Under the pieces are notes generated by a model that was not told the origin of the DNA, ran no database searches, and worked only from the letters and a program-made list of their open reading frames with translations. The position numbers and the translations under genes were made by a program. This document shows positions 1-16,938 of a stretch of DNA of 30,207 nucleotides, piece after piece. Within the stretch, counting starts at the first letter, position 1, and every line of letters begins with the position of its first letter. Origin of the DNA: a virus; the IMG/VR virus record IMGVR_UViG_3300007734_000557, positions 1 through 30,207 of that record, one strand, 5' to 3'.

Positions 1-1842
1 CGGGGTGAAGTCCTCAGGCGCGAAGATGGTAGGCGTGACAATCAAGGGAACGTACGGAGCATACACATAGCCTGTTTCCAGGTATGATCCGCCCTTGTAA
101 CTAACAAGGATCTTATTTCTGGGGAAGTAAGGGTCCTTGTACACGGTGAACCTGTTGCTCAGGCTGCCGATAGGTGTTGCACCGATCGAGAAGCTTGAAC
201 CAACTTGGCCCTGACCATCGAGGCTGTAGCTAGGTTTGTAGAGGACCGAAGCCTCGAGGACAGTCGCCACATCGGGTGAAACCACGATGAAGTTAGCTGA
301 ACCGCGGAGGGTCTTACGGTGAATCTCATTCGCCACGTCGATGATGGTCTCGATCAGTGTTTCGTACCACTCGCGCACAGTACCGGTGAAGTTCGGTCCA
401 GGATTGAGTGAAGAAGCACGAACGACTTCTGAGCCAGTCACCTTGTTGATGAACTTGCCCGGTGAGCGCGACCAGTAGTAATTGGCACCATTGGCCTGTG
501 TGAGCAGGTCATTGAGGATTTCTCTGTCCAACTCGAGGGCGATTTGCTCGCTCAAGATCTGGGTGAGCTCGACCTCTGCATCCAATGAGTGGTATGCATT
601 GAGGTCCTGTGCCAATTCAGGCGACCAGCGAGCGCGCAGCTTGCGGGTCGTTGCAGTCACTGCAATTGACTCAATCTTGATGTCAATTTCAGGGATCAGA
701 GGGCTAGGAGTCGTACCGAAGTTAGACTCAAAGCTTGGGATCACCAGGGTATCACCACCGGAAGCATCAGCTGAGAAAGAATCGGCGATGGCGAATGAAC
801 CGGTAAGGTTCTTGGCCGGGCCAGTTCCTGCTGTGGGTGATGATGCAGCCGCAAGAACGCCTGACACGACGCAGAGCATTGAAACACCAGCGGTGTTGAC
901 ATTTGCAAGTGCATTGGGTGTGAAGACGCCATTCGCGAAGGTACCAAGCTGGTTGAGACGACGAACATTCAAGAGGCCTGAACCACCTTGAATGGTATTC
1001 GCCACATTGCCAAGACCGACATCAGCACGGGTAACGGCTGCTGTGTAGATGCTGAAGTCTTTGGCCTGGGTTGTGTCGAATGTTGTCAGTGCAGAGAGGT
1101 CAACCACGAGGAACGAGTAAGCACCATTACCAGTTGCCGCACCAGCGCCACCGGTATTGGACTCAATAGCATTGGTGATTGCAGGATCGAACTGGAGATA
1201 ACGACCGTCTGTACCAGTAGCGAAAGCAGACTGACCTGCGACTATGGTATTTCCAGTGCGGTATGAACCTGATGCAAGCAGTGACAGAGTCGCTGTCTGA
1301 TGAACCTTGGAGTAGGAGGTACCAGCCAGATCGTATTGGCCACCGACAGCAAGCGATCCGCTCTGGATGCCTTTACCTGTAGGAAGGTTATAGATTGACT
1401 GACCTGCAGTATAGGTCTGTGCATAGGTTGAAGCACCATTGCCATCAGTTATTGATGAGTCACCACCGACGTTGGTTCCGTAGGTGTAATCTAGGTAGAA
1501 GAGCAGGCCTGAAGGCAGGCTCATCGGCTGGATTGAGACCAGCTCATTTGCGACCAGACCACCAAAGACCCTGCGGACTATGGGGAATGCGATCGAAGTG
1601 AAACCACGCAGATCGCCGCTGGAAGCAAGATTGCCACCGCCTGTTGACAGGCTGTTAGACTCACGAAGGACCTGAGCTGCTTGGTTCTCGAGAAGACGTG
1701 CCATATTGTCACGCTTGGTGTTCTCAAGACCGCGGAGCAGTCCGGTACGTGTCCACTTTTCGACGAGGCGTTGACCCTCGGCACCATTGTTACGCTCGCT
1801 GATTCCTTCAGTGAGTGTATTGAGAGAGAATGTCTTTGACAT
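1..1842 (-). CDS. 23: Major capsid protein, gp23-like (C-terminus cut by window edge)
   Basis: The frame is open from ATG at 1842 to base 1, giving 614 residues without a stop, so only the C-terminal end is missing. The start has a strong ribosome site (ACAGGAG, 7 nt upstream). It follows the gp22-like scaffold gene directly, as gene 23 follows gene 22 in T4. The N-terminus carries LLENQAAQVLRES, and an L-x-E site at E61/S62 fits the T4 prohead-protease rule; T4 gp23 is cut after residue 65. The visible C-terminal end reads YAPYVPLIVTPTIFAPEDFTP-like, typical of gp23 (APYVPL, then a D-F-T-P segment). T4 gp23 has 521 residues, so this protein is larger. Residues about 120-330 are rich in G, S, T and A and may form an enlarged insertion domain. 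Its GC content is visibly higher than that of the neighbouring genes, which suits a very highly expressed protein. It forms the hexameric shell of the head. Confidence 0.93.
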   Translation of the reverse strand, partial: MSKTFSLNTLTEGISERNNGAEGQRLVEKWTRTGLLRGLENTKRDNMARLLENQAAQVLRESNSLSTGGGNLASSGDLRGFTSIAFPIVRRVFGGLVANELVSIQPMSLPSGLLFYLDYTYGTNVGGDSSITDGNGASTYAQTYTAGQSIYNLPTGKGIQSGSLAVGGQYDLAGTSYSKVHQTATLSLLASGSYRTGNTIVAGQSAFATGTDGRYLQFDPAITNAIESNTGGAGAATGNGAYSFLVVDLSALTTFDTTQAKDFSIYTAAVTRADVGLGNVANTIQGGSGLLNVRRLNQLGTFANGVFTPNALANVNTAGVSMLCVVSGVLAAASSPTAGTGPAKNLTGSFAIADSFSADASGGDTLVIPSFESNFGTTPSPLIPEIDIKIESIAVTATTRKLRARWSPELAQDLNAYHSLDAEVELTQILSEQIALELDREILNDLLTQANGANYYWSRSPGKFINKVTGSEVVRASSLNPGPNFTGTVREWYETLIETIIDVANEIHRKTLRGSANFIVVSPDVATVLEASVLYKPSYSLDGQGQVGSSFSIGATPIGSLSNRFTVYKDPYFPRNKILVSYKGGSYLETGYVYAPYVPLIVTPTIFAPEDFTP

Positions 1843-5233: not shown

Positions 5234-5833
5234 TTATTTCCATGCAATAATGTTGTTAAAGATTCTATCGATTCTATCTGAACGATTGAATGTCTTGTTT
5301 AGATCGCGGACATCAATGTTCTTTGATTCATTAATGAATGCACCTGGTGTCGATGGTTCAGAAACTATATCAAAACATATGAGCTGAAAATCATCTTGAA
5401 CAATTAGTGTATTGCCTTGTTGCTTTGTAGATCCTACACCTCTTGATGAGATGCCAAGCGTTACACCTGATTCTACTAAGCTCTGAAGAATTTTGCCACT
5501 TGGTGTATCAAGTAGTTCTATCACTCCAAAGACATCATCACCGTCCATTTTCGCTTCTTTGACAAGATGCGATGCATTCTTTAGCTCAACAACAGATGTA
5601 TCAGGATGATCACATTCACCTAGCGCTCGATTCTCTCTAATAAACTTCTGGTAGTTAATGATTTCTCTCTCAAGTATTCCTCGAGGATAAATCCTTCCAT
5701 TTTGGTTTAGTGTATCTGCGCGCTGGATAATACCTTTAAGCAATATTTTACCACCGTTCATGTCTCTTGATTCTTTAACAAGAGCGGTGCTATATTTGAG
5801 AGCAGTCCACTCTTTAAGCAATGTCATTGACAT
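5234..5833 (-). CDS. 21: Prohead maturation protease, gp21-like
   Basis: The 199-residue protein has the herpes/T4-type prohead protease fold signatures. These are a core beginning GGKILLKGIIQRAD (about 27-40), a NQNGRIYPR segment, the catalytic His in GECDHPDTS (H76), and the catalytic Ser in LGISSRGVGS (S129 or S130). An Asp in the strand ICFDIVSEPSTPGA (D155) may complete the active site. T4 gp21 has 212 residues, so length agrees. It degrades the scaffold and trims gp23 after L-x-E motifs, such as the one at E61 of the capsid protein here. Its ATG overlaps the previous stop as TAATG. Gene order portal, unknown, protease, scaffold, capsid matches T4 genes 20-23 apart from the inserted unknowns. 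Confidence 0.92.
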   Translation of the reverse strand: MSMTLLKEWTALKYSTALVKESRDMNGGKILLKGIIQRADTLNQNGRIYPRGILEREIINYQKFIRENRALGECDHPDTSVVELKNASHLVKEAKMDGDDVFGVIELLDTPSGKILQSLVESGVTLGISSRGVGSTKQQGNTLIVQDDFQLICFDIVSEPSTPGAFINESKNIDVRDLNKTFNRSDRIDRIFNNIIAWK

Positions 5834-6672
5834 TATGCCCCCTTTAGTTCTCTAATTAGTTGTGTAATTGTCATTAGCCGCGAAAGCTTATCATCATCTA
5901 TTGATTCAAAAGTAAGTTGTGCTAGTTTATTAGCAACAACTTCTGCTTTTTCAAGTACAACGTGATTTGTCTCAGTCTTCTTAAGAATGTCAAGCGCTTG
6001 TGTTGCTTCATTCTTTAACATCGCGGCTTTGAACTTAATCGATTCGCAATCATCATTTTGAACAGAGAAGACGTAATCGTTAATCAAGTCTTTTTGCTCA
6101 TTTGTGAGCTTGTCATTATATTTCTTGTTGAATTTTTCATTCATAATCTTAACAACTAAAGAGTCAACATTACGATCAACATCAGGCTCAACTTCAATTT
6201 CTTTCTTTTCTGACGTCAGCCATTCAATCAACGTTGACTCAATAACAACTACTTCAGACAGATTTGATCTGTCGCCTTGACGCCATTCATTTAGCAGCGT
6301 TTGTATTGATGCATAAACTCTGTAGTCAGGTATGCTACGTCTATAGAATTTATCATCTGCAAGACTGTAATTGATCTCTCTTATAAGAGAAGACTTTTCA
6401 TTATCTAATTTTGCAGCATCAAATCTACGAGAAGCTGCTCTAGACTCTGTTAAAATTGCTGCTGCAATTGATGAGTCTTTTACGGTAGTCTTTGCAAGTG
6501 CATTAAATAATCTGAACTCTTTATAAAGTTCTGTGTTCTTATTGTAGTGCGTTGTTAAGACATTTAGCGCAATTTGCGCTCGCGGCTTATCGTTCTCGAT
6601 AAGGTACGCAGAGACCGCGCGAACTAGAAGTTCGTAGATTATTCCAACATTACGTTTTTTATTATGACTCAT
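5833..6672 (-). CDS. Unknown protein between portal and protease (279 aa)
   Basis: The longest reading starts at 6720, but that begins deep in the portal gene. The Met at 6672 has AGGGGATGAAG just upstream and starts MSHNKKRNVGIIYELL, so I prefer it (279 residues, 11-nt overlap with the portal end). The protein is almost entirely alpha-helical and highly charged, with no membrane segment or known catalytic motif. It ends with helices (LEKAEVVANKLAQL, then KLSRLMTITQLIRELKG). I know no function. Position between portal and protease suggests a head-assembly or prohead-core partner. It is much larger than T4 gp67/gp68, which occupy this interval in T4. Confidence 0.82.
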   Translation of the reverse strand: MSHNKKRNVGIIYELLVRAVSAYLIENDKPRAQIALNVLTTHYNKNTELYKEFRLFNALAKTTVKDSSIAAAILTESRAASRRFDAAKLDNEKSSLIREINYSLADDKFYRRSIPDYRVYASIQTLLNEWRQGDRSNLSEVVVIESTLIEWLTSEKKEIEVEPDVDRNVDSLVVKIMNEKFNKKYNDKLTNEQKDLINDYVFSVQNDDCESIKFKAAMLKNEATQALDILKKTETNHVVLEKAEVVANKLAQLTFESIDDDKLSRLMTITQLIRELKGA

Positions 6673-9600
6673 CTTCATCCCCTGATGTATTTTCTGACTC
6701 AGAGATCTTTCTATTAGCATTCTTGAGTTTTTTCACAATTGATTCAATCTCAGATAACCGCATATCACCAAAAATTTGTCTTTGATCTAAGTATTCATCA
6801 ACATCGTCATCGTCATTCTCTGACATTGGATTTTTGAAAGGATTTATAAGATCTTGTTTATTTCCAAAAGGATGTGATATTGAATCACTTTGCTTTGACT
6901 TGCTGTGTGACACAAGCTTTGCATGATCAGTATCTTGATTAAGTGGATTTTTCCTTCGAGGCTTGTTTTTTAACTCTCTAGCTACGTAGTTAGGACCAGG
7001 AGATGTCTCTCCAAGCAGGCTCTTTTTAAGTGATAGACTATGTTTAGGCTTGACTGGATAGGGGGCGTAGCTTCCATTTCGATAAATCTCTTCGTCATTA
7101 TCAAAAGCTTCTTCATAATCGACTTCACCCAATGTTTGTTGACCACCTGACAAATCTGTAGTTTGACCATTATCTTCGGGCGGTGATGGTGGTGCTGATG
7201 TATCGCTAGGAATCACAGAACTCAGATCTGCATTTGGTGCAGATCCAGGAATTTCTGGAAGTTTGACTGCTTCAATCTTAAGTTCCATCGCCTTGTCTTT
7301 TAGCAATCCCTTTTCGATTTCCTTTATCTCATCATCAGACATCATAAAGACGTTCTTTCTAACCCAATTCTTATCAACGAGACCTGCAACACCGTTTGCT
7401 GATTGTGCAATTGTGAATTTCGTATTGAAAAGTTCTAGCTTTTGTTGCTGTGCAATCGTTGAAGGATTTGTAAGTTTCAACTCAAAATCTAGCAGATCAT
7501 CTCCGCTAAATCCATGTGTATGAAGATGAATTATTGCAATCTTGTTAAGTTCAGAGAGAATCGTTCTTTGGATTCTATTGATCGATCTTGAAAACCTGAT
7601 ATCTTCTTGTGACAGTGTTGCCTTAGCACCAAGACCTTCATCGTAGCCAAGATATGCTTTTGGTATTTTTAAAGCAGCAAATAGCTTTTTCTGGATGTAT
7701 TGAACATCTTCAACAGCCGCTGTATTCTGACCGCCTGTTAGTGTATCAATTTTTGTGCCTGTCGAAGCGCCACGAACAGGTAAGAAATAATCTTCATCAA
7801 CTGAGAGAGGATTATATCGAAGATCGACGCGCCCAGTGTTCTTATCAACGACTTGATTTTTCTTAAGCTGCGCTTGAGCCTGCTCCATGTAATTAGGAAT
7901 TTCTTCAGGTGGAATATTTCCTACATCAATGTAGAAGACACGACGATCTGGCGCTCTAACAATTCGATAGACTAACATCGCATCTTCGACAAGAATCAAT
8001 TGACGCCATATTCTTCTTGCAGCTTCTAGAACTGATGTTCCGTAAGGAAGAAATGCATCATTTCCTAAGATTCTAAAATGAGAAACTTGCCAATTTTCAA
8101 GGATCTGGTTTCCTTGAGTCATCCAGCGAAATCTAACTGCCAGAGGGTCATCTTTATCATAGCCTTCTTCGCGCTCAATTTCATTAACAGAGATTGGATA
8201 AACATTGATTACTCCAACCTCTGGCGAAACATCATTAAACAGGAAGAAGTCACCGTATTTACACATATTTCTGACCCAAGATGTCAAATTAAAATTGACA
8301 TTTAGCGTGTCATAGAAAAGTTCATTTAAGATCTTATGAACGCTTGGGTTCTCTGAGTAAATGTGCAGAACATTACCCATCTCATCAGGTGCAACAGATT
8401 CTTCTGCGTATATGTCAAGAGAGCTTGCAATCTCAGGTGTGTTGTGAGAAATGACAGTATCAGTTGCAAAATTCTTGTATCCATCAACTGTAAGATCAAA
8501 TAAAGGAATTACTCCGTGATATTCGATTGAAGATACTTTGAGATTATTATAAGACTCATTAAACTCAGAGTAATTCTTATATCCCCTATCTCTTAATCGC
8601 TTATCGATAATAGACGTAGTAGTTTGTAGCTCATTTGCAAGATTCTTTTTCTTCATTCCTTTAGTAAATTTTTCACAAATCTTATCAAAAGTTATGATTT
8701 TAACGTAACGAGGATTTAGATCACCGGTATTGACCCAACCAGCATTTTGCCAGTCAGGCCTATAGGCTTTAGCAAAAGTCTCAAAATTATCGTAACCGTG
8801 ACGACGCAAACGTCGCTTAATAACATTCGGGTCAGTATCAAATGCATCGCAAAGTCGATAAAGATTAAATCCAACTGATTCACAAGTTTCAAGAATCCTG
8901 CCAAATGTGATATCTTTACGTTCGGCTGGGTTGTTTTCTGTCATAAACTTAGAATGCTTTAATTTGAATTCTTCAATCCAAGAAGCATTTTCAGCTGACC
9001 ATTTGTTTCCATTAATAATTTCTGTATGCAATCGCTTATGATCTGCATCTATCATAATTTGTAGATTCTCGATCCTGTTATCATACTTGGTGAAATTCAA
9101 GTGATGGACAACTTCATTGTCATCAAGCTGTGAACCCTTGATCATCTCTGCAAGAAGACGATGTTCTGCTGTCCAACCATTCATTTTTGATCTACGATCC
9201 ATCGTGTAGATCCAGCGATATCCCTTGCCTTCTTCTTTGCAACCATTAAAAAGATCACGTCGATAGAAAGGCATCATTGCATCGTCGGTTTTAAGATCTT
9301 CAATCTTGCAAAAAGTACCATCTCGCTTCATTAGACGATGATTTGGAGTGCCTATAATCTTTTGACCGTTGTCAAAAGTGACCGTGTAGGCATGATCGAC
9401 TCGTGTCTGTCGCGCTTGCTTTCCAATTGCAGGAACAATTCGATGCTCATTATGATCGTATGAATAGACAATGAAAGTATGATCTGTGTCTTTCTCGCAA
9501 TCTTTTGCAAGCTCACCAATTGTCTTGTAGCCTCCAGGCACAGCAATCAATGTGTCTTCATGTAAGCAATATTCCATTTCTTGGAAGTCAGAATATCTTG

Positions 9601-9790
9601 CCATACGATCATAAGATCCATATGCAGACATTGCTGAGCTGTACACATGACTCTGCGTCTTTCTAAAGAGTTCAAAAGCCGACGTGTTCTTTGTGCTTGG
9701 CATAAAGTCACGCACTCTACGCTTGATAACAGGTCCGCTTCTAAATAACTTTGTAAGTCTACTAAATACGCTATCTTCTTGCTTCGCCAT
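6662..9790 (-). CDS. 20: Portal protein, gp20-like, interrupted by an intein
   Basis: The 1042-residue precursor consists of a 74-residue N-extein, a 376-residue intein (75-450) and a 592-residue C-extein; splicing would give a portal of 666 residues. The exteins join as DFQEMEY + TPEIASSLDIYAEES, a typical gp20 segment. Later gp20 signatures include RAPDRRVFYIDVGNIPPEE, YNPLSVDEDYFLPVRG and IPKAYLGYDEGLGAKATLSQEDIRFSR. T4 gp20 has 524 residues; the extra length is a hydrophilic, probably disordered C-terminal tail (roughly the last 200 residues, with Asp/Glu clusters). The portal forms the dodecameric ring at the head vertex, nucleates prohead assembly and is the DNA channel used by the terminase encoded just upstream. 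Without splicing the protein should not work. Confidence 0.93.
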   Translation of the reverse strand: MAKQEDSVFSRLTKLFRSGPVIKRRVRDFMPSTKNTSAFELFRKTQSHVYSSAMSAYGSYDRMARYSDFQEMEYCLHEDTLIAVPGGYKTIGELAKDCEKDTDHTFIVYSYDHNEHRIVPAIGKQARQTRVDHAYTVTFDNGQKIIGTPNHRLMKRDGTFCKIEDLKTDDAMMPFYRRDLFNGCKEEGKGYRWIYTMDRRSKMNGWTAEHRLLAEMIKGSQLDDNEVVHHLNFTKYDNRIENLQIMIDADHKRLHTEIINGNKWSAENASWIEEFKLKHSKFMTENNPAERKDITFGRILETCESVGFNLYRLCDAFDTDPNVIKRRLRRHGYDNFETFAKAYRPDWQNAGWVNTGDLNPRYVKIITFDKICEKFTKGMKKKNLANELQTTTSIIDKRLRDRGYKNYSEFNESYNNLKVSSIEYHGVIPLFDLTVDGYKNFATDTVISHNTPEIASSLDIYAEESVAPDEMGNVLHIYSENPSVHKILNELFYDTLNVNFNLTSWVRNMCKYGDFFLFNDVSPEVGVINVYPISVNEIEREEGYDKDDPLAVRFRWMTQGNQILENWQVSHFRILGNDAFLPYGTSVLEAARRIWRQLILVEDAMLVYRIVRAPDRRVFYIDVGNIPPEEIPNYMEQAQAQLKKNQVVDKNTGRVDLRYNPLSVDEDYFLPVRGASTGTKIDTLTGGQNTAAVEDVQYIQKKLFAALKIPKAYLGYDEGLGAKATLSQEDIRFSRSINRIQRTILSELNKIAIIHLHTHGFSGDDLLDFELKLTNPSTIAQQQKLELFNTKFTIAQSANGVAGLVDKNWVRKNVFMMSDDEIKEIEKGLLKDKAMELKIEAVKLPEIPGSAPNADLSSVIPSDTSAPPSPPEDNGQTTDLSGGQQTLGEVDYEEAFDNDEEIYRNGSYAPYPVKPKHSLSLKKSLLGETSPGPNYVARELKNKPRRKNPLNQDTDHAKLVSHSKSKQSDSISHPFGNKQDLINPFKNPMSENDDDDVDEYLDQRQIFGDMRLSEIESIVKKLKNANRKISESENTSGDEDES
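8441..9568 (-). mobile_element. Portal intein with HNH homing endonuclease domain
   Basis: The intein covers precursor residues 75-450 (376 aa). Splicing residues are intact: Cys at position 1 (CLHEDTLIAV, block A), a block B T-x-x-H (GTPNHRLM, about 73-80), block F (LFDLTVDGYKNFATD) and block G (VISHN) with His-Asn at the end, followed by Thr as the first C-extein residue. Inside lies an HNH-type nuclease segment (intein residues about 133-182: AEHRLLAEMIKG, EVVHHLNFTKYDNRIENLQ, DHKRLH). After it come two related helical repeats (about 220-270 and 291-341), each starting I-T-F and ending with K/R-R-L-R-x-x-G-Y; these look like helix-turn-helix DNA-binding units. The reading frame is open throughout, so both splicing and homing may be active. 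The insertion point lies in a conserved portal motif, as usual for inteins. Confidence 0.93.
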
Positions 9791-9795
9791 TTATC

Positions 9796-11394
9796 CTACT
9801 TGTAGATCCATAATAGATCAGCTGGTATATTGTATCTTGTTTGGAAACGACCGCTTATAAGATCTTTCTTTGCTTCGACTTTTTTCTTGCTTGCACCGGT
9901 AATTATGTCATTTGCAACGCCATTAAATTCTTGTGACTTAAGTGACATACTTGCAAGCATTGCTTTATTGAGAACGTCTGAGTCTCTATTATATTCTGAT
10001 GACGAGTCAAAAAGCCATGCACTTATTGCAAGACTCATTACGAGATCATCATTTTCGCCTTTCATTGCCTGAACTCTATTGTCAGTCCAGACAAACGTCT
10101 TTAATTCATCATAGAATCTTGATGAGTAAGAAATAAGTTGCTTGTTTCTTAGTAGCTCTTCAAGTTTTGTAAGAATTAGCGAACGTGACTTTCCGCTTGT
10201 GCTAAATCCTGCTGTTGTTGTATCGCCAGGAGGTATGTAGTCGCCAATATAGACAGCATTGCTACGTTGGTAGTACATCTTAGGATAGTTTAGATCTCTA
10301 AGTCTGATAATAGTTGCATAACCAAAGCTATTATTCTCTGGGCAGAGAAGTGCTTTATTGTACTTTAGACCATATTCATTAAGAAGATCACCAAATCTAT
10401 CTGGTGCTATTTTTCCTTTATACTCAACAACGATCTCACCTGTCATTAAATCGACAATATGAAATGTTGAGTAGTCTTTTCCATCGCCTCTAGCGATGTC
10501 GGCAGTCATGACGTATTTGTGTTCTGATAGTGGATATTTCCATGTCCAAACGTTTCGATCAAATCCTGATCTTTCAACAGGATTTGCAATGATAGAATAC
10601 AACCACTTAAGATCATCGTCGCCCAAAAATGTCTCGCCAGACGAAGCAAAATCGCACAAGTATTCTTGCGCGATCTGTCTTGCTGAAAGATTTTTAGTCT
10701 CTTTATCAAACCAAGCTTGATCTCGCTCAGGATGAACATCCCAATTCAGTTTGATTGATTTAAACTCATTCTGGTCAGCTTCGGCATCTTTATACAGCTT
10801 GTAATACTGACCACCTACACCATTAGGTGTGGATAAAAGAATTGCACGACCGCCCGTAGTTAGAGTAGGGTATAGACCTGTCCATAACGTATCGAAATCT
10901 CTAACCCATGCTGCTTCATCTACGATAAGAAGCGACAATGCCTCAGATCGACCTGCATCTTCTGATGTCGGTATCGCTTTGATCGATGAACCGTGGCTAA
11001 ACTCAACAAGCTGCTTGTTATTTGCAGTGACCTGCGATAACATTAGCCACGGTGGTAAATTAGTTAGAATCGTTTTGGTCTTCTTGATAAAATTCTGAGC
11101 GACTTGTAATTTCGTCGCAATAATCAAGATATTTTTGTCGCGCTGAAATAACGCGAGCCAAACTGCGTAGGCTGCAACAAGTGTCGAAAGACCAAGCTGT
11201 CTACCTTTCACAACAATGACGAATCTATTGTCAATGAATTCTTTGACACAATCATCTTGGAAAGGAAATGTCTTAAACGGTATTGTACCCTTTGTCGGGT
11301 GCTGAATTTTGACATAGTTGTTGAAAAAATAGGCAGGATCTTTGCCACACCTTACAATCTCAGCAACTTGTCTTGATTTGTTGACAATAGTCAT
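9796..11394 (-). CDS. 17: Terminase large subunit, gp17-like
   Basis: This 532-residue protein combines the packaging ATPase and headful nuclease. In order: adenine-binding Q-motif region (TFPFQDDC, about 42-49), Walker A-like VVKGRQLGLST (61-71), Walker B LLIVDEAAW (155-163), coupling motif LLSTPNGVGG (186-195), then the RNase H-like nuclease with MTADIARGDGKDYS (D299), CPENNSFG (E353) and GENDDLVMS (D449/D450). The P-loop has Leu where T4 gp17 has its essential Lys (SRQLGKTT). A start overlapping the previous stop (TAATG) suggests coupling to the small gene upstream. T4 gp17 has 610 residues; length is in range. It would work with the portal encoded immediately downstream. Confidence 0.94.
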   Translation of the reverse strand: MTIVNKSRQVAEIVRCGKDPAYFFNNYVKIQHPTKGTIPFKTFPFQDDCVKEFIDNRFVIVVKGRQLGLSTLVAAYAVWLALFQRDKNILIIATKLQVAQNFIKKTKTILTNLPPWLMLSQVTANNKQLVEFSHGSSIKAIPTSEDAGRSEALSLLIVDEAAWVRDFDTLWTGLYPTLTTGGRAILLSTPNGVGGQYYKLYKDAEADQNEFKSIKLNWDVHPERDQAWFDKETKNLSARQIAQEYLCDFASSGETFLGDDDLKWLYSIIANPVERSGFDRNVWTWKYPLSEHKYVMTADIARGDGKDYSTFHIVDLMTGEIVVEYKGKIAPDRFGDLLNEYGLKYNKALLCPENNSFGYATIIRLRDLNYPKMYYQRSNAVYIGDYIPPGDTTTAGFSTSGKSRSLILTKLEELLRNKQLISYSSRFYDELKTFVWTDNRVQAMKGENDDLVMSLAISAWLFDSSSEYNRDSDVLNKAMLASMSLKSQEFNGVANDIITGASKKKVEAKKDLISGRFQTRYNIPADLLWIYK

Positions 11395-11774
11395 TAGTTA
11401 TTGACAGTATAAACTGCTCTCCTCCTATAATACGCGGTGCGCTTAGGATTGAATGAAGACATAGAAATAACTTCTATCTCATCAGTAGATTCACCTTTCT
11501 TAAGCTTCAGAGTTTCATTAGCTGTTGTCTTATAATCTTTCTTTACTTGTGTGATAAAGTCATCAATCAGCTTCTCAGAGATTCTTTCTTGCTCGCGAAC
11601 TTGCTCGCGAGCTGGTTTGTCTGTAACGATATTTGTAATTGTCGTATACATCACATGAATCTCATTACCAGACATCTTAGTCTTGATTGAGAATGTAGCA
11701 TTCTTCGGTGTTGAAGATTTACCAAAAGTCGTGTCAAGAATCTGGCCGAGTATGTTAATCTGCTGGAAGTTCAT
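11394..11774 (-). CDS. Small protein before terminase; possible small terminase subunit
   Basis: The Met at 11774 is preceded by AAAAGGATTCAAA, a good ribosome site, and is preferred over the Met at 11792; it gives 126 residues. The protein begins MNFQQINILGQILDTTFGKS. A central charged helix (about 57-90, REQVREQERISEKLIDDFI) is followed by a basic C-terminus (RTAYYRRRAVY). In T4 the small terminase gene 16 directly precedes gene 17, and this gene has the same place with a TAATG junction. However, I cannot see the gp16 signature, and the protein is shorter than T4 gp16 (164 aa). The small-terminase idea is positional inference; a virion or unknown protein is as likely. Confidence 0.75.
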   Translation of the reverse strand: MNFQQINILGQILDTTFGKSSTPKNATFSIKTKMSGNEIHVMYTTITNIVTDKPAREQVREQERISEKLIDDFITQVKKDYKTTANETLKLKKGESTDEIEVISMSSFNPKRTAYYRRRAVYTVNN

Positions 11775-11997
11775 TTTGAATCCTTTTAGCATTCAATGCT
11801 AGCTCAATACGTTCATTTCTATATTTATCAATATCTTCGGCTTGTGGCCGCCAACCTTTAGCCCACTGCTCTCTATTTGCTTCTGCCCATTTCATAGCAC
11901 AATTCCTACAACACTTAAAGTGCTTGTAGTGTGTCTGGTCATGCCTGTAGTCTAATGAAAATTCACAGACTTCACAAAAGAGACTCATATCATTCAT
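11755..11997 (-). CDS. Small zinc-ribbon protein (80 aa)
   Basis: This 80-residue protein has two CxxC knuckles, FCEVCEF (C8, C11) and CCRNCA (C30, C33), separated by a His/Tyr-rich spacer, which together should bind one zinc ion. Then follow a Trp/Gln-rich stretch (KWAEANREQWAKGWRPQ) and a charged helix. The start at 11997 overlaps the end of the Mre11-Rad50 gene by 8 nt and has AAGAG 6 nt upstream. Its 3' end overlaps the next gene by 20 nt. The function is not known. Zinc ribbons of this size in phages may bind nucleic acid or a polymerase, but nothing here shows which. Confidence 0.8.
   Translation of the reverse strand: MNDMSLFCEVCEFSLDYRHDQTHYKHFKCCRNCAMKWAEANREQWAKGWRPQAEDIDKYRNERIELALNAKRIQNELPAD
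11822..11829 (-). promoter_or_regulatory. Possible T4-type late promoter core (GATAAATA)
   Basis: The minus strand reads GATAAATA, 7 of 8 bases of the T4 late consensus TATAAATA, 47 nt before the start of the small gene that precedes the terminase. It lies inside the coding region of the zinc-ribbon gene, where late promoters can occur in compact phage genomes. In AT-rich DNA such a match can arise by chance. Confidence 0.3.
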
Positions 11998-14900
11998 AAT
12001 TCACTCTTGATCTATCACCATCAGTTTCTATCACTATCATATTATCAACAACATCTTTGATTGCATCAACATGTGAGATAATAACTATCTTCTTAAAATA
12101 ACCCTTTAGATTCTGAAGTAAACGTGCGCATGCCTCAAGATTGCTTTCATCAAGTGCACCAAATCCTTCATCGATGATCAACATGTCTGATTTTGGAAGT
12201 GATGAAATACTAGTCAATGCAACACGTATTGCAATTGAAGAAATCATCTTCTCCATTCCTGATCCTAGCTCTATGATGCGCTTTTTGTCATCATAGACGA
12301 TATAGATCTCAATATTGTTGGATTCATCACATTCTATCTCGACCGTAAAGCCTGAGATGCCTGTAAGGATTTTGCTAATCTCAGCATTGATTAGAGGCAG
12401 ATACTTTGCAATGATGCTTTGTGGGATTCCTTTCTTTGAGAAAGCGTTCTCAAGAAGAGACAAGACTTCATGCTTTGCAAGAGACTCTTTAAGATCTTCG
12501 ATCTGCTTAATTGAATTGTTAATCTTTTCTTCATTTCTACCGCGATTTGACGCAGTAGAAATTAGATCACGTTCAAGAGATGCAACCTTGTTTTTAGCAG
12601 CAATAAATTCCTTATGCTGGTCAGCGACCCCTGCCTTATCTTGAAGATCTTTCTTCTTTTGAAGCGTTTTGAGTGACTCAACAGCATCTTGATGTTGTGT
12701 CTTCCTTGTTGTGATTCGTTCCTCAAACAAAGGTATATTTGACTCAGACTTTAACTTCTGTTGTGAGATCTCATTGCTTAGGCTTGCAAGCTTTCCAATC
12801 TTTTCAATCTTTCCTTTAATGTCATCTTTGTTGATCTCTTTAATTCTGTCTCCGAGAATCGACAGCGTTCGCTCTGTGGCATCGCGTGACTCTTCCTCGG
12901 CCTTGATAAGACCTTTTCCTTGATGTGCATCTTTGATAAAAATGCATGTTGGATAGCTGTCACCACATGGAATATCATCAAGAATCTTGGTGCGTTTTCT
13001 AAGTTTCTCAATATCAGAATTTTTTGTCTCAAGATCTTTTGTATTAATTGCAAACTTCATTTCTAGATCTTTTAAGGTCTCTTCCTGCTTTCGAAGATCT
13101 TCTATGCTAACTGTGCTTTTTACCGCTTCAATCTTCTCTAGCTTTTGCTTAAAGTCTTCGATAGACGCAATATTTTCATCCATCTTAGTCTGTAGATCAG
13201 AAAACTCATTCTCAAGACGGCTAATTTTCTGCGTTGCAGTTATGATATCAATATCTGATATGATCTCTGATGTAGGGTTATTGATAGCTTGCAGTCCTTC
13301 TTTCGCTTTGTCAAGCAGCAATGTAGTATTGTCTGCTTCTTTCTCGAGAAGACTTTTCTGCTCAATTAGATCGTCTCTATTTTTTATTAAGACATCTAAT
13401 GTCTGTGTTGTTTTGAGATTTGCTTTGATAGGCGACAAGTCTTGCTTGACTTTATCATGATAGAGATCAAAGATCTCTAAGTCAAGAAATCTGCTTAAGA
13501 TCTGCTTGCGACTTGTCGACTTTTCATTAATAAACATGTTCATCTGGCCTTGAGGGGCTAGACAAGTGTAGAAAAAATCGTCAGATGTGCCAATTAGCTT
13601 TCTAACGATCTTCTCTGTCTCGCGACGTTGCTCATCATTCAGGTCTTTAAGGACATCGCCTGTGCTACGCTTCTTAAGCGAAAGTTTTGTCGTTGCAGAA
13701 ACATCAGATTTCTTTGAGAAGACCTTGTTGGTCTCTCTCTCGATCTCATAAACTTCTTCTGCAACAGACATGACAACTTTAGCTTTGCATTCATTTGCTT
13801 GTGCATTTATGATATGCAAGTTTTTCATCGATCCGCGATCTGTTACATTAAACAATGCATAGGCGATTGATCCTATTACAGACGATTTACCTGACCTGTT
13901 CTTTCCAAAAATCCCAGTTATTCCATCAAGCTTGTCGAAGTTTATTGAATTGCCTGGTCCGTATGAAAACAAGTTGTCAAACTCAAACCGTTTAAGGCTC
14001 CAGACAATATTTCTCGCAACTTCATCATCAATTACAACTGAGTCGTAGTATTTGTCAAATAGTGTCATAGCCGCTCCGAGGCGGCGATCTTCTATCGACT
14101 TAGACTTTAAATAGTCATCGATGATCATCTTAAGGACATTCTTATCCCTAATATTTTCTGACTTTAGTGGTTGAAGTGTTGTCGTAGTTTTTTGCTCGAC
14201 AGACTCTGATTTTGTTGTAATCTCAGAAAATTTACCTGCTGACTGTGTCTGTGTGTAGAGAGAACGAACATCATGCTCATTTACATCAGAAGGTAATGAA
14301 TACCTGATTCTTGCTTTTGGTGTTATTCCTGAAAGCTTCCCAAGAGTTTGTGTAACATCACCATTCCAATCAATTGTGTGAAAAGGCATATCATTCTTCA
14401 CACTAATAAATTTAGTAGTGAAGTTGTTTTTGGTTTTTATGTCCCAAGACAAGAAACCTTTATCTACTTCTTCTCCATAGTTCTGCTGTATTGTCGAACC
14501 ACAATATGCTATTGTACCTGCATCATTAAGAAATTGTCGTTGGTGTATGTCACCAAGCAGTGCAAAATCAAACTTCTCAAATAGATCTATGGTGACTTCA
14601 CCTTCCAGCTCCATCCCAGAGTCTGATTTAGCGCCTTTTACAGCACCATGATAGAATGCAATATTAATGCTACCCTTATCAGGTACTACATCAGGCCATC
14701 CAGCAACATCGAATGGTGAGAAGACACACCATTTAAATCCGTCGACAGGTGCATCAAAAACACCTGACTGCTTAAACAGGCGCAATCTAGGATTATTCAA
14801 TGCTGAGATGATCGGAGTAATTGCGTCTTGTCGGTCCTTATTTAGGATTAGACCATCATGATTTCCAAGAATGACATCAACAGGCGCAATCTTGGTTAGT

Positions 14901-15100
14901 TCTGTGAACCACCATGATAAGACATCGATGACTTCAGGCGTTATACCTTGAGTCTTTGAATGGACAATGTCTCCACCGATGTAAATTACATCAGGCTTTT
15001 CGACCTTTAGCTTCTCAAATGCATCAATAAATGCATTTCGATATTCATCATGTCTAGCAAGACCGCGGAAATGTACATCAGCAAAATGGGCAATTTTCAT
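11990..15100 (-). CDS. 47-46: Fused Mre11/SbcD nuclease and Rad50/SbcC ATPase (gp47-gp46 fusion)
   Basis: One uninterrupted frame of 1036 residues holds both subunits of the recombination nuclease. Residues 1 to about 350 are the SbcD/Mre11 calcineurin-like phosphodiesterase: HFADVHF (D8, H10), GGDIVHS (D44), GNHDG (N80, H81), YHGAVKG (H151) and LGDIHQR (D184, H186). Residues about 365-1036 are SbcC/Rad50: Walker A GKNRSGKSS (399-407), Q-loop LAPQGQMN (Q517), two coiled-coil arms (about 545-710 and 730-880) around a CGDSYPTC hook (C712, C719), signature ELGSGMEKM (945-951), Walker B MLIIDEGFGALD (973-984) and H-loop IISHVD (H1010). In T4 these are the separate proteins gp47 and gp46, which resect DNA ends for recombination-dependent replication. 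All key residues are present, so it should be active. Confidence 0.93.
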   Translation of the reverse strand: MKIAHFADVHFRGLARHDEYRNAFIDAFEKLKVEKPDVIYIGGDIVHSKTQGITPEVIDVLSWWFTELTKIAPVDVILGNHDGLILNKDRQDAITPIISALNNPRLRLFKQSGVFDAPVDGFKWCVFSPFDVAGWPDVVPDKGSINIAFYHGAVKGAKSDSGMELEGEVTIDLFEKFDFALLGDIHQRQFLNDAGTIAYCGSTIQQNYGEEVDKGFLSWDIKTKNNFTTKFISVKNDMPFHTIDWNGDVTQTLGKLSGITPKARIRYSLPSDVNEHDVRSLYTQTQSAGKFSEITTKSESVEQKTTTTLQPLKSENIRDKNVLKMIIDDYLKSKSIEDRRLGAAMTLFDKYYDSVVIDDEVARNIVWSLKRFEFDNLFSYGPGNSINFDKLDGITGIFGKNRSGKSSVIGSIAYALFNVTDRGSMKNLHIINAQANECKAKVVMSVAEEVYEIERETNKVFSKKSDVSATTKLSLKKRSTGDVLKDLNDEQRRETEKIVRKLIGTSDDFFYTCLAPQGQMNMFINEKSTSRKQILSRFLDLEIFDLYHDKVKQDLSPIKANLKTTQTLDVLIKNRDDLIEQKSLLEKEADNTTLLLDKAKEGLQAINNPTSEIISDIDIITATQKISRLENEFSDLQTKMDENIASIEDFKQKLEKIEAVKSTVSIEDLRKQEETLKDLEMKFAINTKDLETKNSDIEKLRKRTKILDDIPCGDSYPTCIFIKDAHQGKGLIKAEEESRDATERTLSILGDRIKEINKDDIKGKIEKIGKLASLSNEISQQKLKSESNIPLFEERITTRKTQHQDAVESLKTLQKKKDLQDKAGVADQHKEFIAAKNKVASLERDLISTASNRGRNEEKINNSIKQIEDLKESLAKHEVLSLLENAFSKKGIPQSIIAKYLPLINAEISKILTGISGFTVEIECDESNNIEIYIVYDDKKRIIELGSGMEKMISSIAIRVALTSISSLPKSDMLIIDEGFGALDESNLEACARLLQNLKGYFKKIVIISHVDAIKDVVDNMIVIETDGDRSRVNYE

Positions 15101-15424: not shown

Positions 15425-16387
15425 TCAGATCATTGACCCACTTTTAATATTTGCTATCTTATACTTGAAAGATGTGGTCATATTCCACATCTGCAGATTT
15501 GATTTTGCATGATCACGTTGATCTTGCGACATTTCTGCAATATCTTTTGCACTCGATGTGTCCATGATCGATACATCACACCCATATTCAACAAGCAAAT
15601 CAGCTATACGACCAATCTTTCGTGTCATGTCACTATCAAGACAGAGAACTACATCAGACTGATTTGCAACTATCTTTTTAAAGAGTAGAGAAGTTTCTGG
15701 AAGTGCTGAGCCGAGGAGGCATGTTCCATTTTCTCCCAAAGCAATCAAATCAAAGACACCTTCAACAAGATAGATCTTCTTATCCCAGTCTATGTCGACG
15801 TCATTAAAAATAATGCTAGTCTTATCTGCTGTAGCATTGATGTATCTGTATTTGGATTTCTTATCAGAAGTTCTGCTTACGAAGTAGTTTACTTCGCCCT
15901 CTGTATCAAGAGAAACAAAGATAGCTCGTCCTCTATGAGAAAACTCAGGTGAAACACCAATCCTGTATTTCCAGATTATTTCTTCTGTAATAGATCGATT
16001 AGAAAGATACCTCAATACAGACTTGACATCAGGATCACGAGCACTCTCTAGTAACGGAATTGGAACATACCCATCAGGTACTGAGACCTTATGCTCCATT
16101 TCGATCATATCTGCTGATAAGATCTTGTCGTTTAGATAGTTCGATCTATAGAAGTCAAGGCTTTCTCTTGAACCAAATTTCCTGATGATTGGAATCAGTG
16201 AATTTCCTTTGCTGCTGCAAACCCAGCAATGAAATTTCCAGTTTTCCAAATTAACTGCTAATTTCTTTTTTCCTTGCTCGTGACAAAATGGGCAGTTGAG
16301 TGTAATGTCATTTCCATCTCGCGAGATATTGCCTTTTCCCAATATCTTTTGGATGAAGTTGATTCGTTCTGTGTAAGTAGAAGACAC
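15425..16387 (-). CDS. DNA primase (zinc finger plus TOPRIM)
   Basis: The start codon is GTG at 16387 (reads MSSTYTERIN). A zinc-binding domain has C32-P-F-C35 and C54-W-V-C57, like the CHC2-type finger of DnaG and T7 gp4. A catalytic core follows (about 105-200), including the segment RGRAIFVSLDTEGEVNYFVSR. A TOPRIM domain has KKIYLVEGVFD (E209), VVLCLDSD (D251, D253) and KD at 281-282. At 320 residues it lacks a helicase domain, so it is a stand-alone primase that would need a separate replicative helicase, as T4 gp61 needs gp41. It probably makes RNA primers for lagging-strand synthesis. A weak AAAGATAAGATATT leader precedes the GTG. Confidence 0.87.
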   Translation of the reverse strand: MSSTYTERINFIQKILGKGNISRDGNDITLNCPFCHEQGKKKLAVNLENWKFHCWVCSSKGNSLIPIIRKFGSRESLDFYRSNYLNDKILSADMIEMEHKVSVPDGYVPIPLLESARDPDVKSVLRYLSNRSITEEIIWKYRIGVSPEFSHRGRAIFVSLDTEGEVNYFVSRTSDKKSKYRYINATADKTSIIFNDVDIDWDKKIYLVEGVFDLIALGENGTCLLGSALPETSLLFKKIVANQSDVVLCLDSDMTRKIGRIADLLVEYGCDVSIMDTSSAKDIAEMSQDQRDHAKSNLQMWNMTTSFKYKIANIKSGSMI

Positions 16388-16416: not shown

Positions 16417-16938
16417 TTACACCAAAATTGCTGATCGAGCTATGACATATGAATCTGCCATATCATAACAGCAAGATTTCAGACTACCTGTTCTAGATTT
16501 AGGCCAATCAAATACTATCTGTTTAGATACCCATTCATAGATCTTGTCTTTAGTAGATCTTGATTTATCTTTATAATCTATCTTAATACCCAGTGAAGAT
16601 CTAGATTTAATAGCATTGATGAAAATAGGCTCAACTTTTAACACGTCAAAACAAATAAACGAAATTGCTCCATTAAATCTGGCTAAAGTGTTTATAGTGC
16701 TAGCAGACGACAACCCCGGTCGAAACGCCTGCAAGTTTTGTTCGATCGACACAATTGTCATCTGATATTTGACATTCAGCTCAATTAGTTTTTCTTTGAC
16801 AGCAATACATTTTGCTGAGAATGATTCGATCTTATCAAGTTTGATATGGCCTAATTCTAGAAGTGTCCCATCAGATTCTAGAATACAGTACCCAGTGCAT
16901 GATGTTGAGATATCAAGACCTAAAATCCTAGAAGTCAT
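16417..16938 (-). CDS. RuvC-like Holliday-junction resolvase (RNase H fold)
   Basis: The 173-residue protein has the RuvC acidic set: ILGLDISTSCTG (D9) on the first strand, VSIEQNLQ (E66), and CCYDMADSYVIA (D159, D162) in the last helix. Length matches E. coli RuvC (173 residues). It would cut branched DNA, resolving recombination junctions before packaging, the job T4 does with the unrelated endonuclease VII (gp49). Its start overlaps the end of the lectin-like virion gene by 11 nt, and it leads the DNA-metabolism group (resolvase, primase, Mre11-Rad50). RuvC-like proteins of phages may also act on other branched structures. Confidence 0.88.
   Translation of the reverse strand: MTSRILGLDISTSCTGYCILESDGTLLELGHIKLDKIESFSAKCIAVKEKLIELNVKYQMTIVSIEQNLQAFRPGLSSASTINTLARFNGAISFICFDVLKVEPIFINAIKSRSSLGIKIDYKDKSRSTKDKIYEWVSKQIVFDWPKSRTGSLKSCCYDMADSYVIARSAILV

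Follow-up and report, generated by a model that had tools for sequence, protein, structure and literature searches.

A Mre11-Rad50 fusion protein with an altered hook in a distant T4-like tailed phage

The virus record IMGVR_UViG_3300007734_000557 of IMG/VR (30,207 bases, analysed at full length and called the window in the following) contains at 11990-15100 on the minus strand a single uninterrupted open reading frame (ORF) of 1036 codons plus stop, which encodes a Mre11-Rad50 (SbcD-SbcC) fusion. We regard it with good confidence as a genuine fusion, equivalent to gp47-gp46 and of the same kind as Mimivirus R555, from an aquatic T4-like tailed phage; this confidence refers to the whole explanation including the function proposed below. 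Coordinates, strand, frame and codon number had been given exactly in an earlier note made from the DNA letters, which had also placed the nuclease in front of the ATPase.

Two enzymes in one reading frame

Both halves were recognised in the same ORF by library searches. In Pfam, Metallophos matches residues 1-115 (E 1.4e-10) and AAA_23 residues 375-617 (E 1.2e-12); the SbcC Walker B profile matches residues 943-996 more weakly, below the Pfam cut-off. PHROG 77 (SbcC-like) is found with E 2.9e-52, and a sequence search of the PDB retrieved chains of E. coli SbcC and archaeal Rad50 as well as chains of SbcD/Mre11. The order is that of the R555-type proteins, with the nuclease at the N-terminus and the ATPase at the C-terminus of one polypeptide.

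Fused form in related phages

Relatives are numerous. Twenty-five were found in a first scan of viral contigs, and an alignment-based scan gave at least 578 confirmed stretches, which would mean that many aquatic T4-like phages use the fusion. An intact fused ORF is present in 88 fetched loci, a number in which the record of the window itself and Listeria phage LMTA-57 are counted. Other phage proteins with both domains in the same order, a search for which the earlier note had proposed, were found; besides many viral contigs they include the cultured phages Microcystis phage Mel-JY01 and Tenacibaculum phage PTm1. Where a close relative is incomplete, the contig ends within the gene; the exceptions are distant hits and locus L002. 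In the latter (LR756508.1, a 484-kb uncultured phage; L002:6640-7640) an insertion of about 900 bases breaks the fusion gene just after the GDIH motif; it codes for a possible homing endonuclease and matches no Rfam intron family. Four loci binned as Methylococcaceae, an archaeon, Nitrosopelagicus and Gemmatimonadetes (L106, L107, L108, L109) have the phage gene cluster and resemble phage contigs in bins of metagenome-assembled genomes (MAGs).

That two neighbouring genes were merged by an error of assembly or base calling is hardly credible. Artefacts of this kind do occur, as Listeria phage LMTA-57 with its 1010-amino acid 'fused' ORF illustrates, but numerous independent contigs of IMG/VR, at 34-97% identity, share the fused frame, as does the isolate Mel-JY01. 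A frameshift or missed stop at the junction, a possibility raised in the earlier note, was looked for in the relatives and is absent from more than 80 other contigs. A survey anchored on the terminase, chosen so that the loci were not selected by the fusion itself, also counts against such an error, with 35 fused loci, 15 that still have the Rad50 part but are cut by the contig edge, 26 without a Mre11-Rad50 gene in the stored stretch and none split. A survey anchored on the hook gave 97 fused, 22 cut and no split loci and one unexplained ORF of 215 amino acids. An intact split form was found in neither set; some contigs are shared among the locus sets, so that the counts are not fully independent. 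Moreover, synonymous changes dominate across the junction, again in conflict with an assembly error: compared with 92% identical relatives, the ratio of non-synonymous to synonymous substitution rates is about 0.06 for residues 290-366 and 0.04 overall, and by this comparison the junction is under purifying selection. For the lineage, an assembly error is rejected on the basis of the independent contigs and the terminase-anchored survey.

The recombination exonuclease ORF of LMTA-57 (L004) lacks one base compared with two-gene records that are otherwise identical or nearly so (H153-H204), probably through a sequencing error. Listeria phage P100 has a further break within its Rad50 gene.

A separate Rad50, produced in addition from an internal start at M345 or by proteolysis, would make the working form partly a two-protein complex. 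ATG345 is preceded five bases upstream by GGAG in the window and in the 97% identical L008, and proteolysis could act on the linker 301-319, for which disorder is predicted. Met is found at column 345 in just 4 of 81 sequences, however, and GGAG is missing in the 92% identical L005-L007. No start is conserved beyond the closest relatives; the internal translation start was rejected since M345 is not conserved, and this alternative as a whole is considered very improbable.

Domain layout and predicted structure

The full-length AlphaFold2 model, built on an alignment of 73 sequences, has a mean predicted local distance difference test (pLDDT) value of 85.5 and a predicted template modelling score (pTM) of 0.48; the Mre11 part modelled alone reaches pLDDT 88.6 and pTM 0.78. 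In Foldseek searches, the Mre11 part matches S. aureus SbcD (7dog, nuclease and capping domain), T. maritima Mre11 and E. coli SbcD, and the whole model, a monomer prediction as suggested in the earlier note, has PDB matches to Rad50/SbcC and to SbcD. In a library of viral structures, giant-virus fusions come first (Tupanvirus, E 2.6e-63), and the Tenacibaculum phages pT24 and PTm1 are among the top matches. The top giant-virus matches, from Tupanvirus and others, are full-length repair proteins.

The domains are listed in Table 1. The earlier note had placed a linker at about residues 290-365, at the site of the Mre11 helices that bind Rad50. The models contradict this, because the helices are kept (320-354), residues 240-299 belong to the capping domain and the true linkers are 301-319 and 355-365. 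Helices 320-333 and 338-354 are predicted in both AlphaFold2 models. According to these models the real junction is a tether of 11 residues, behind helices which occupy the place of the Rad50-binding domain. A capping domain and a helix-loop-helix that are retained and then followed by a short tether are typical of R555-type proteins, and the predicted 11 residues agree with the tether of 9-12 residues proposed for Mre11/Rad50 fusions (PMC3175470).

Departures from the canonical sites

Motif conservation was counted over 81 distinct sequences, the window included. The earlier note had seen a full set of SbcD/Mre11 residues, and all residues it listed are present: D8, H10, D44, H81, H151 and H186 are each found in 81/81 sequences, N80 and D184 each in 80/81. 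Motifs I-IV (DxH, GDxxH, GNHD, H) are complete in the window protein; D184, in contrast, is not a canonical residue, as motif V reads GDIH and not GHxH. The claim of a full SbcC/Rad50 set with hook stood likewise in part. Walker A, Q-loop, Walker B, D-loop, H-loop, a two-lobed ATP-binding cassette head and a long coiled coil are all there (G404-K405 of Walker A, D977-E978 of Walker B and H1010 invariant in all 81; Q517 in 79), while hook and signature deviate.

Several observations weigh against the explanation proposed here. In motif V, an Asp takes the position of a metal-binding His of canonical Mre11; the window has GDIH, as do the fused relatives examined, apart from GDLH in L093. The ATPase signature is S-G-M-E and not S-G-G-E. 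It reads GSGMEK in the window (12248-12274, minus strand) and SGMEK or SGAEK in relatives, so that S and G are kept and the Gly in third position is Met or Ala throughout the family. The hook is a Cx6C (C712/C719) and not the canonical CxxC zinc hook. The packing of the domains is not established by the full-length model, because its pTM is only 0.48. Finally, no recombinase is encoded within the 30-kb window itself.

The Asp in motif V could mean that the nuclease site has degenerated and the protein serves as a non-nucleolytic DNA tether or SMC-like clamp. GDIH or GDLH in place of GHxH in every fused member examined is in line with this idea, and GHxH is present in T4 gp47, cyanophage gp47, Staphylococcus phage Remus, Herelleviridae and bacterial Mre11. 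A degenerate site would drift, however, and the other metal ligands as well as D184 itself are invariant or nearly so; besides, Asp can bind metal, and the nuclease subunit of a T5-type phage likewise has Asp in motif V (GDLH). The same His-to-Asp change has been reported in R555 (PMC3175470). A purely structural role is, in our estimate, rather remote. Because all three departures are strongly conserved, motif V, hook and signature are probably altered but working sites.

The hook apex

The Cx6C spacing is found in 72/81 sequences, CxxC in 7 and other spacings in 2. The sequences with CxxC comprise six fused ones (L001, L003, L027, L028, L104, L108) and the Listeria sequence. In the literature, the conserved Rad50 hook is described as CxxC (PMC5093744). 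Among the sequences surveyed here the Cx6C hook was found solely on fused proteins, and a search of the literature on altered Rad50 hooks yielded nothing on Cx6C, which is weak evidence of absence. The unexplained ORF of the hook-anchored survey (L240:5522-6167) has a Cx6C hook but no ATPase match and is perhaps a broken copy or a sequence error.

The Cx6C apex is the least ordinary feature of the gene and one that a specialist may not know. Most likely the loop has changed but a single metal ion is still bound between two chains. It is conceivable, and we propose it tentatively, that a large clade of aquatic-phage fusions has swapped CxxC for a conserved Cx6C apex (consensus PCGDxFPxCKFIKD) and joins its coils differently, either bridged by metal or through the loop. 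The displaced hook cysteines make it possible to study, in a natural variant, how Rad50 coils dimerise.

Proposed function

In 16 of 16 related viral contigs the single SbcC-family match of each is the fused ORF (18 related records; some contigs are fragments and the window is partial), and a RecA-family gene occurs in 14 of the 18 related records. The role of gp46/gp47 in the recombination-dependent replication of T4 has been discussed (PMC3175470). From this role we infer that the phage has no other Mre11-Rad50 machine and that its recombinase receives ends resected by the fusion. Two chains would pair into a homodimer that has two sites each for nuclease and ATPase, and in each chain the helix-loop-helix would dock in cis at the base of the coiled coil, via the 11-residue tether. 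Driven by ATP, the Rad50 heads would open and close and in this way gate the nuclease, and the protein would resect or trim DNA ends. The resulting single strands would pass to the RecA/UvsX-type recombinase of the phage for recombination-dependent replication and for the preparation of concatemers for packaging, as with gp46/gp47 in T4. The fusion fixes a 1:1 stoichiometry and offers a compact single-chain model of the Mre11-Rad50 machine.

The main role might instead be the breakdown of host DNA or counter-defence, since T4 gp46/gp47 are on record as required in both recombination and host-DNA degradation. This is unlikely, as the conserved cluster of RuvC, primase, fusion and terminase and the RecA-family gene elsewhere point to replication, recombination and packaging; the two roles are, moreover, not mutually exclusive.

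Origin of the fusion

A tree of the Mre11 domain places the fused sequences together (support of 88 in the Shimodaira-Hasegawa-like approximate likelihood ratio test) and apart from the split forms of T4-type phages, Herelleviridae and bacteria. Multiple origins among these phages were considered and set aside, as the tree groups the fused rows; the result is soft, with long branches for PTm1 and the T5-type sequences. A single origin for these phages is compatible with the sequence data, not proven, and several origins have been argued across all Mre11/Rad50 fusions (PMC3175470). One non-fused MAG sequence, L112, is nested within the fused clade. This Bacteroidales MAG contig (L112:444-5822) encodes a RuvC-like protein, a primase and an isolated Mre11-like ORF of 284 amino acids with IQQNFGE but GHIH; it may be what is left of a decayed phage, or else a split relative.

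Gene neighbourhood

The window covers part of the genome of a tailed phage distantly related to T4, and the record is probably incomplete because ORFs extend past both of its ends. The order RuvC, primase, fusion, two small genes, terminase and portal is kept in most loci (Table 1). The small ORF at 11755-11997 (minus strand), just downstream of the fusion, is also kept in most loci; its Cys/His-rich spots CEVC and CCRNC suggest a zinc-binding protein. The portal ORF contains an intein of 376 amino acids with an HNH endonuclease (window 8441-9568, minus strand; C75 to N450). Counterparts at the same site are 54% identical in L065 and 31% in L041/L042, and most portal relatives are without intein. 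An Rfam scan of the window detected no RNA family.

Table 1 Features of the fusion gene and its neighbours (residues refer to the fusion protein)
Feature	Position	Strand	Evidence
Mre11-Rad50 (SbcD-SbcC) fusion gene	11990..15100	-	single ORF; Pfam, PHROG and PDB sequence matches to both halves; fused in relatives
Mre11/SbcD-type metallophosphoesterase domain, residues 1-239	14384..15100	-	Pfam Metallophos; motif conservation (81 sequences); SbcD/Mre11 structure matches
Motif V GDIH (canonical Mre11 GHxH), residues 183-186	14543..14554	-	
Capping domain (strand-helix-strand-helix-strand), residues 240-300	14201..14383	-	AlphaFold2 models; Foldseek to S. aureus SbcD 7dog
Flexible linker, predicted disordered, residues 301-319	14144..14200	-	pLDDT <50 at 301-313
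Helix-loop-helix at place of Mre11 Rad50-binding domain, residues 320-354	14039..14143	-	AlphaFold2; hydrophobic spacing conserved
Short tether from Mre11 part to first Rad50 strand, residues 355-365	14006..14038	-	AlphaFold2 models
Rad50 ATPase N-lobe, residues 366-542 (Walker A GKNRSGKS 399-406, Q-loop Q517)	13475..14005	-	Pfam AAA_23; conservation; Foldseek to Rad50
Outgoing coiled coil, residues 543-709	12974..13474	-	AlphaFold2 secondary structure
Hook apex, residues 710-722 (C712 and C719, PCGDSYPTC, Cx6C)	12935..12973	-	
Returning coiled coil, residues 723-887	12440..12934	-	AlphaFold2 secondary structure
Rad50 C-lobe, residues 892-1036 (signature GSGMEK 946-951, Walker B IIDE 975-978, D-loop D984, H-loop H1010)	11993..12427	-	
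Gp23-type capsid	1-1842		
Prohead protease	5234-5833		
T4-type portal	6662-9790		
T4-type terminase large subunit, downstream neighbour of fusion	9796..11394	-	PHROG 2, PF03237; conserved synteny
DnaG-type primase (zinc ribbon and Toprim), upstream neighbour of fusion	15425..16387	-	Pfam, PHROG 47; present in most loci
RuvC-like Holliday junction resolvase, upstream neighbour	16417..16938	-	PHROG 827 and 159; conserved synteny

Comparison with known systems

The fusion is not new in kind, and the gene is ordinary apart from the tip of its hook. The earlier note had implied separate Mre11 and Rad50 proteins in all other cases; this is wrong, since in 2011 Yoshida, Claverie and Ogata described thirteen fusions in viruses, among them Mimivirus R555, in a Bacillus phage and also in bacteria, plasmids and eukaryotes (PMC3175470). 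In the same work R555-like genes were found beside primases in phage-like marine scaffolds, and abundant marine phages were inferred to be the carriers (PMC3175470). The arrangement of RuvC, primase, fusion and terminase in the window fits this description.

R555 and related fusions share with the window protein the domain order, the retained capping domain and helix-loop-helix, the short tether, the exchange of the first His of motif V for Asp, the phage-like neighbours including primases and the aquatic origin. R555 is longer (1351 versus 1036 amino acids), whereas the window belongs to a tailed-phage genome with T4-type head genes and has the Cx6C hook. R555 was compared by its published description, and the sequence link is indirect, via structural matches to proteins of Tupanvirus and other giant viruses.

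Among phages, WWT39521.1 of Microcystis phage Mel-JY01 is a full-length fusion with 30% identity, and a single small gene separates it from the primase upstream, but it has a canonical CxxC hook (CKHC) and is annotated just as 'AAA domain containing protein'. The Tenacibaculum phages PTm1 and pT24 have fused metallophosphoesterase/DNA repair proteins; that of PTm1 is a single chain of 1318 amino acids with both domains and AGDIH as motif V, yet these proteins are very divergent (about 22% identity), with longer coils and a CPTC hook.

T4 gp47/gp46 and the SbcD/SbcC pair of Herelleviridae, the latter also near a primase, have homologous domains and the proposed role. Unlike the window, which lacks this two-gene organisation, they are encoded by a pair of genes that are usually separated by one or two small ones, and have GHxH and a CxxC hook. 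E. coli SbcCD (PDB 6s6v, 6s85, 7yzo) and T. maritima Mre11-Rad50 correspond to the window protein in the folds of both halves and differ from it in being two polypeptides in a 2:2 assembly with canonical motif V and zinc hook.

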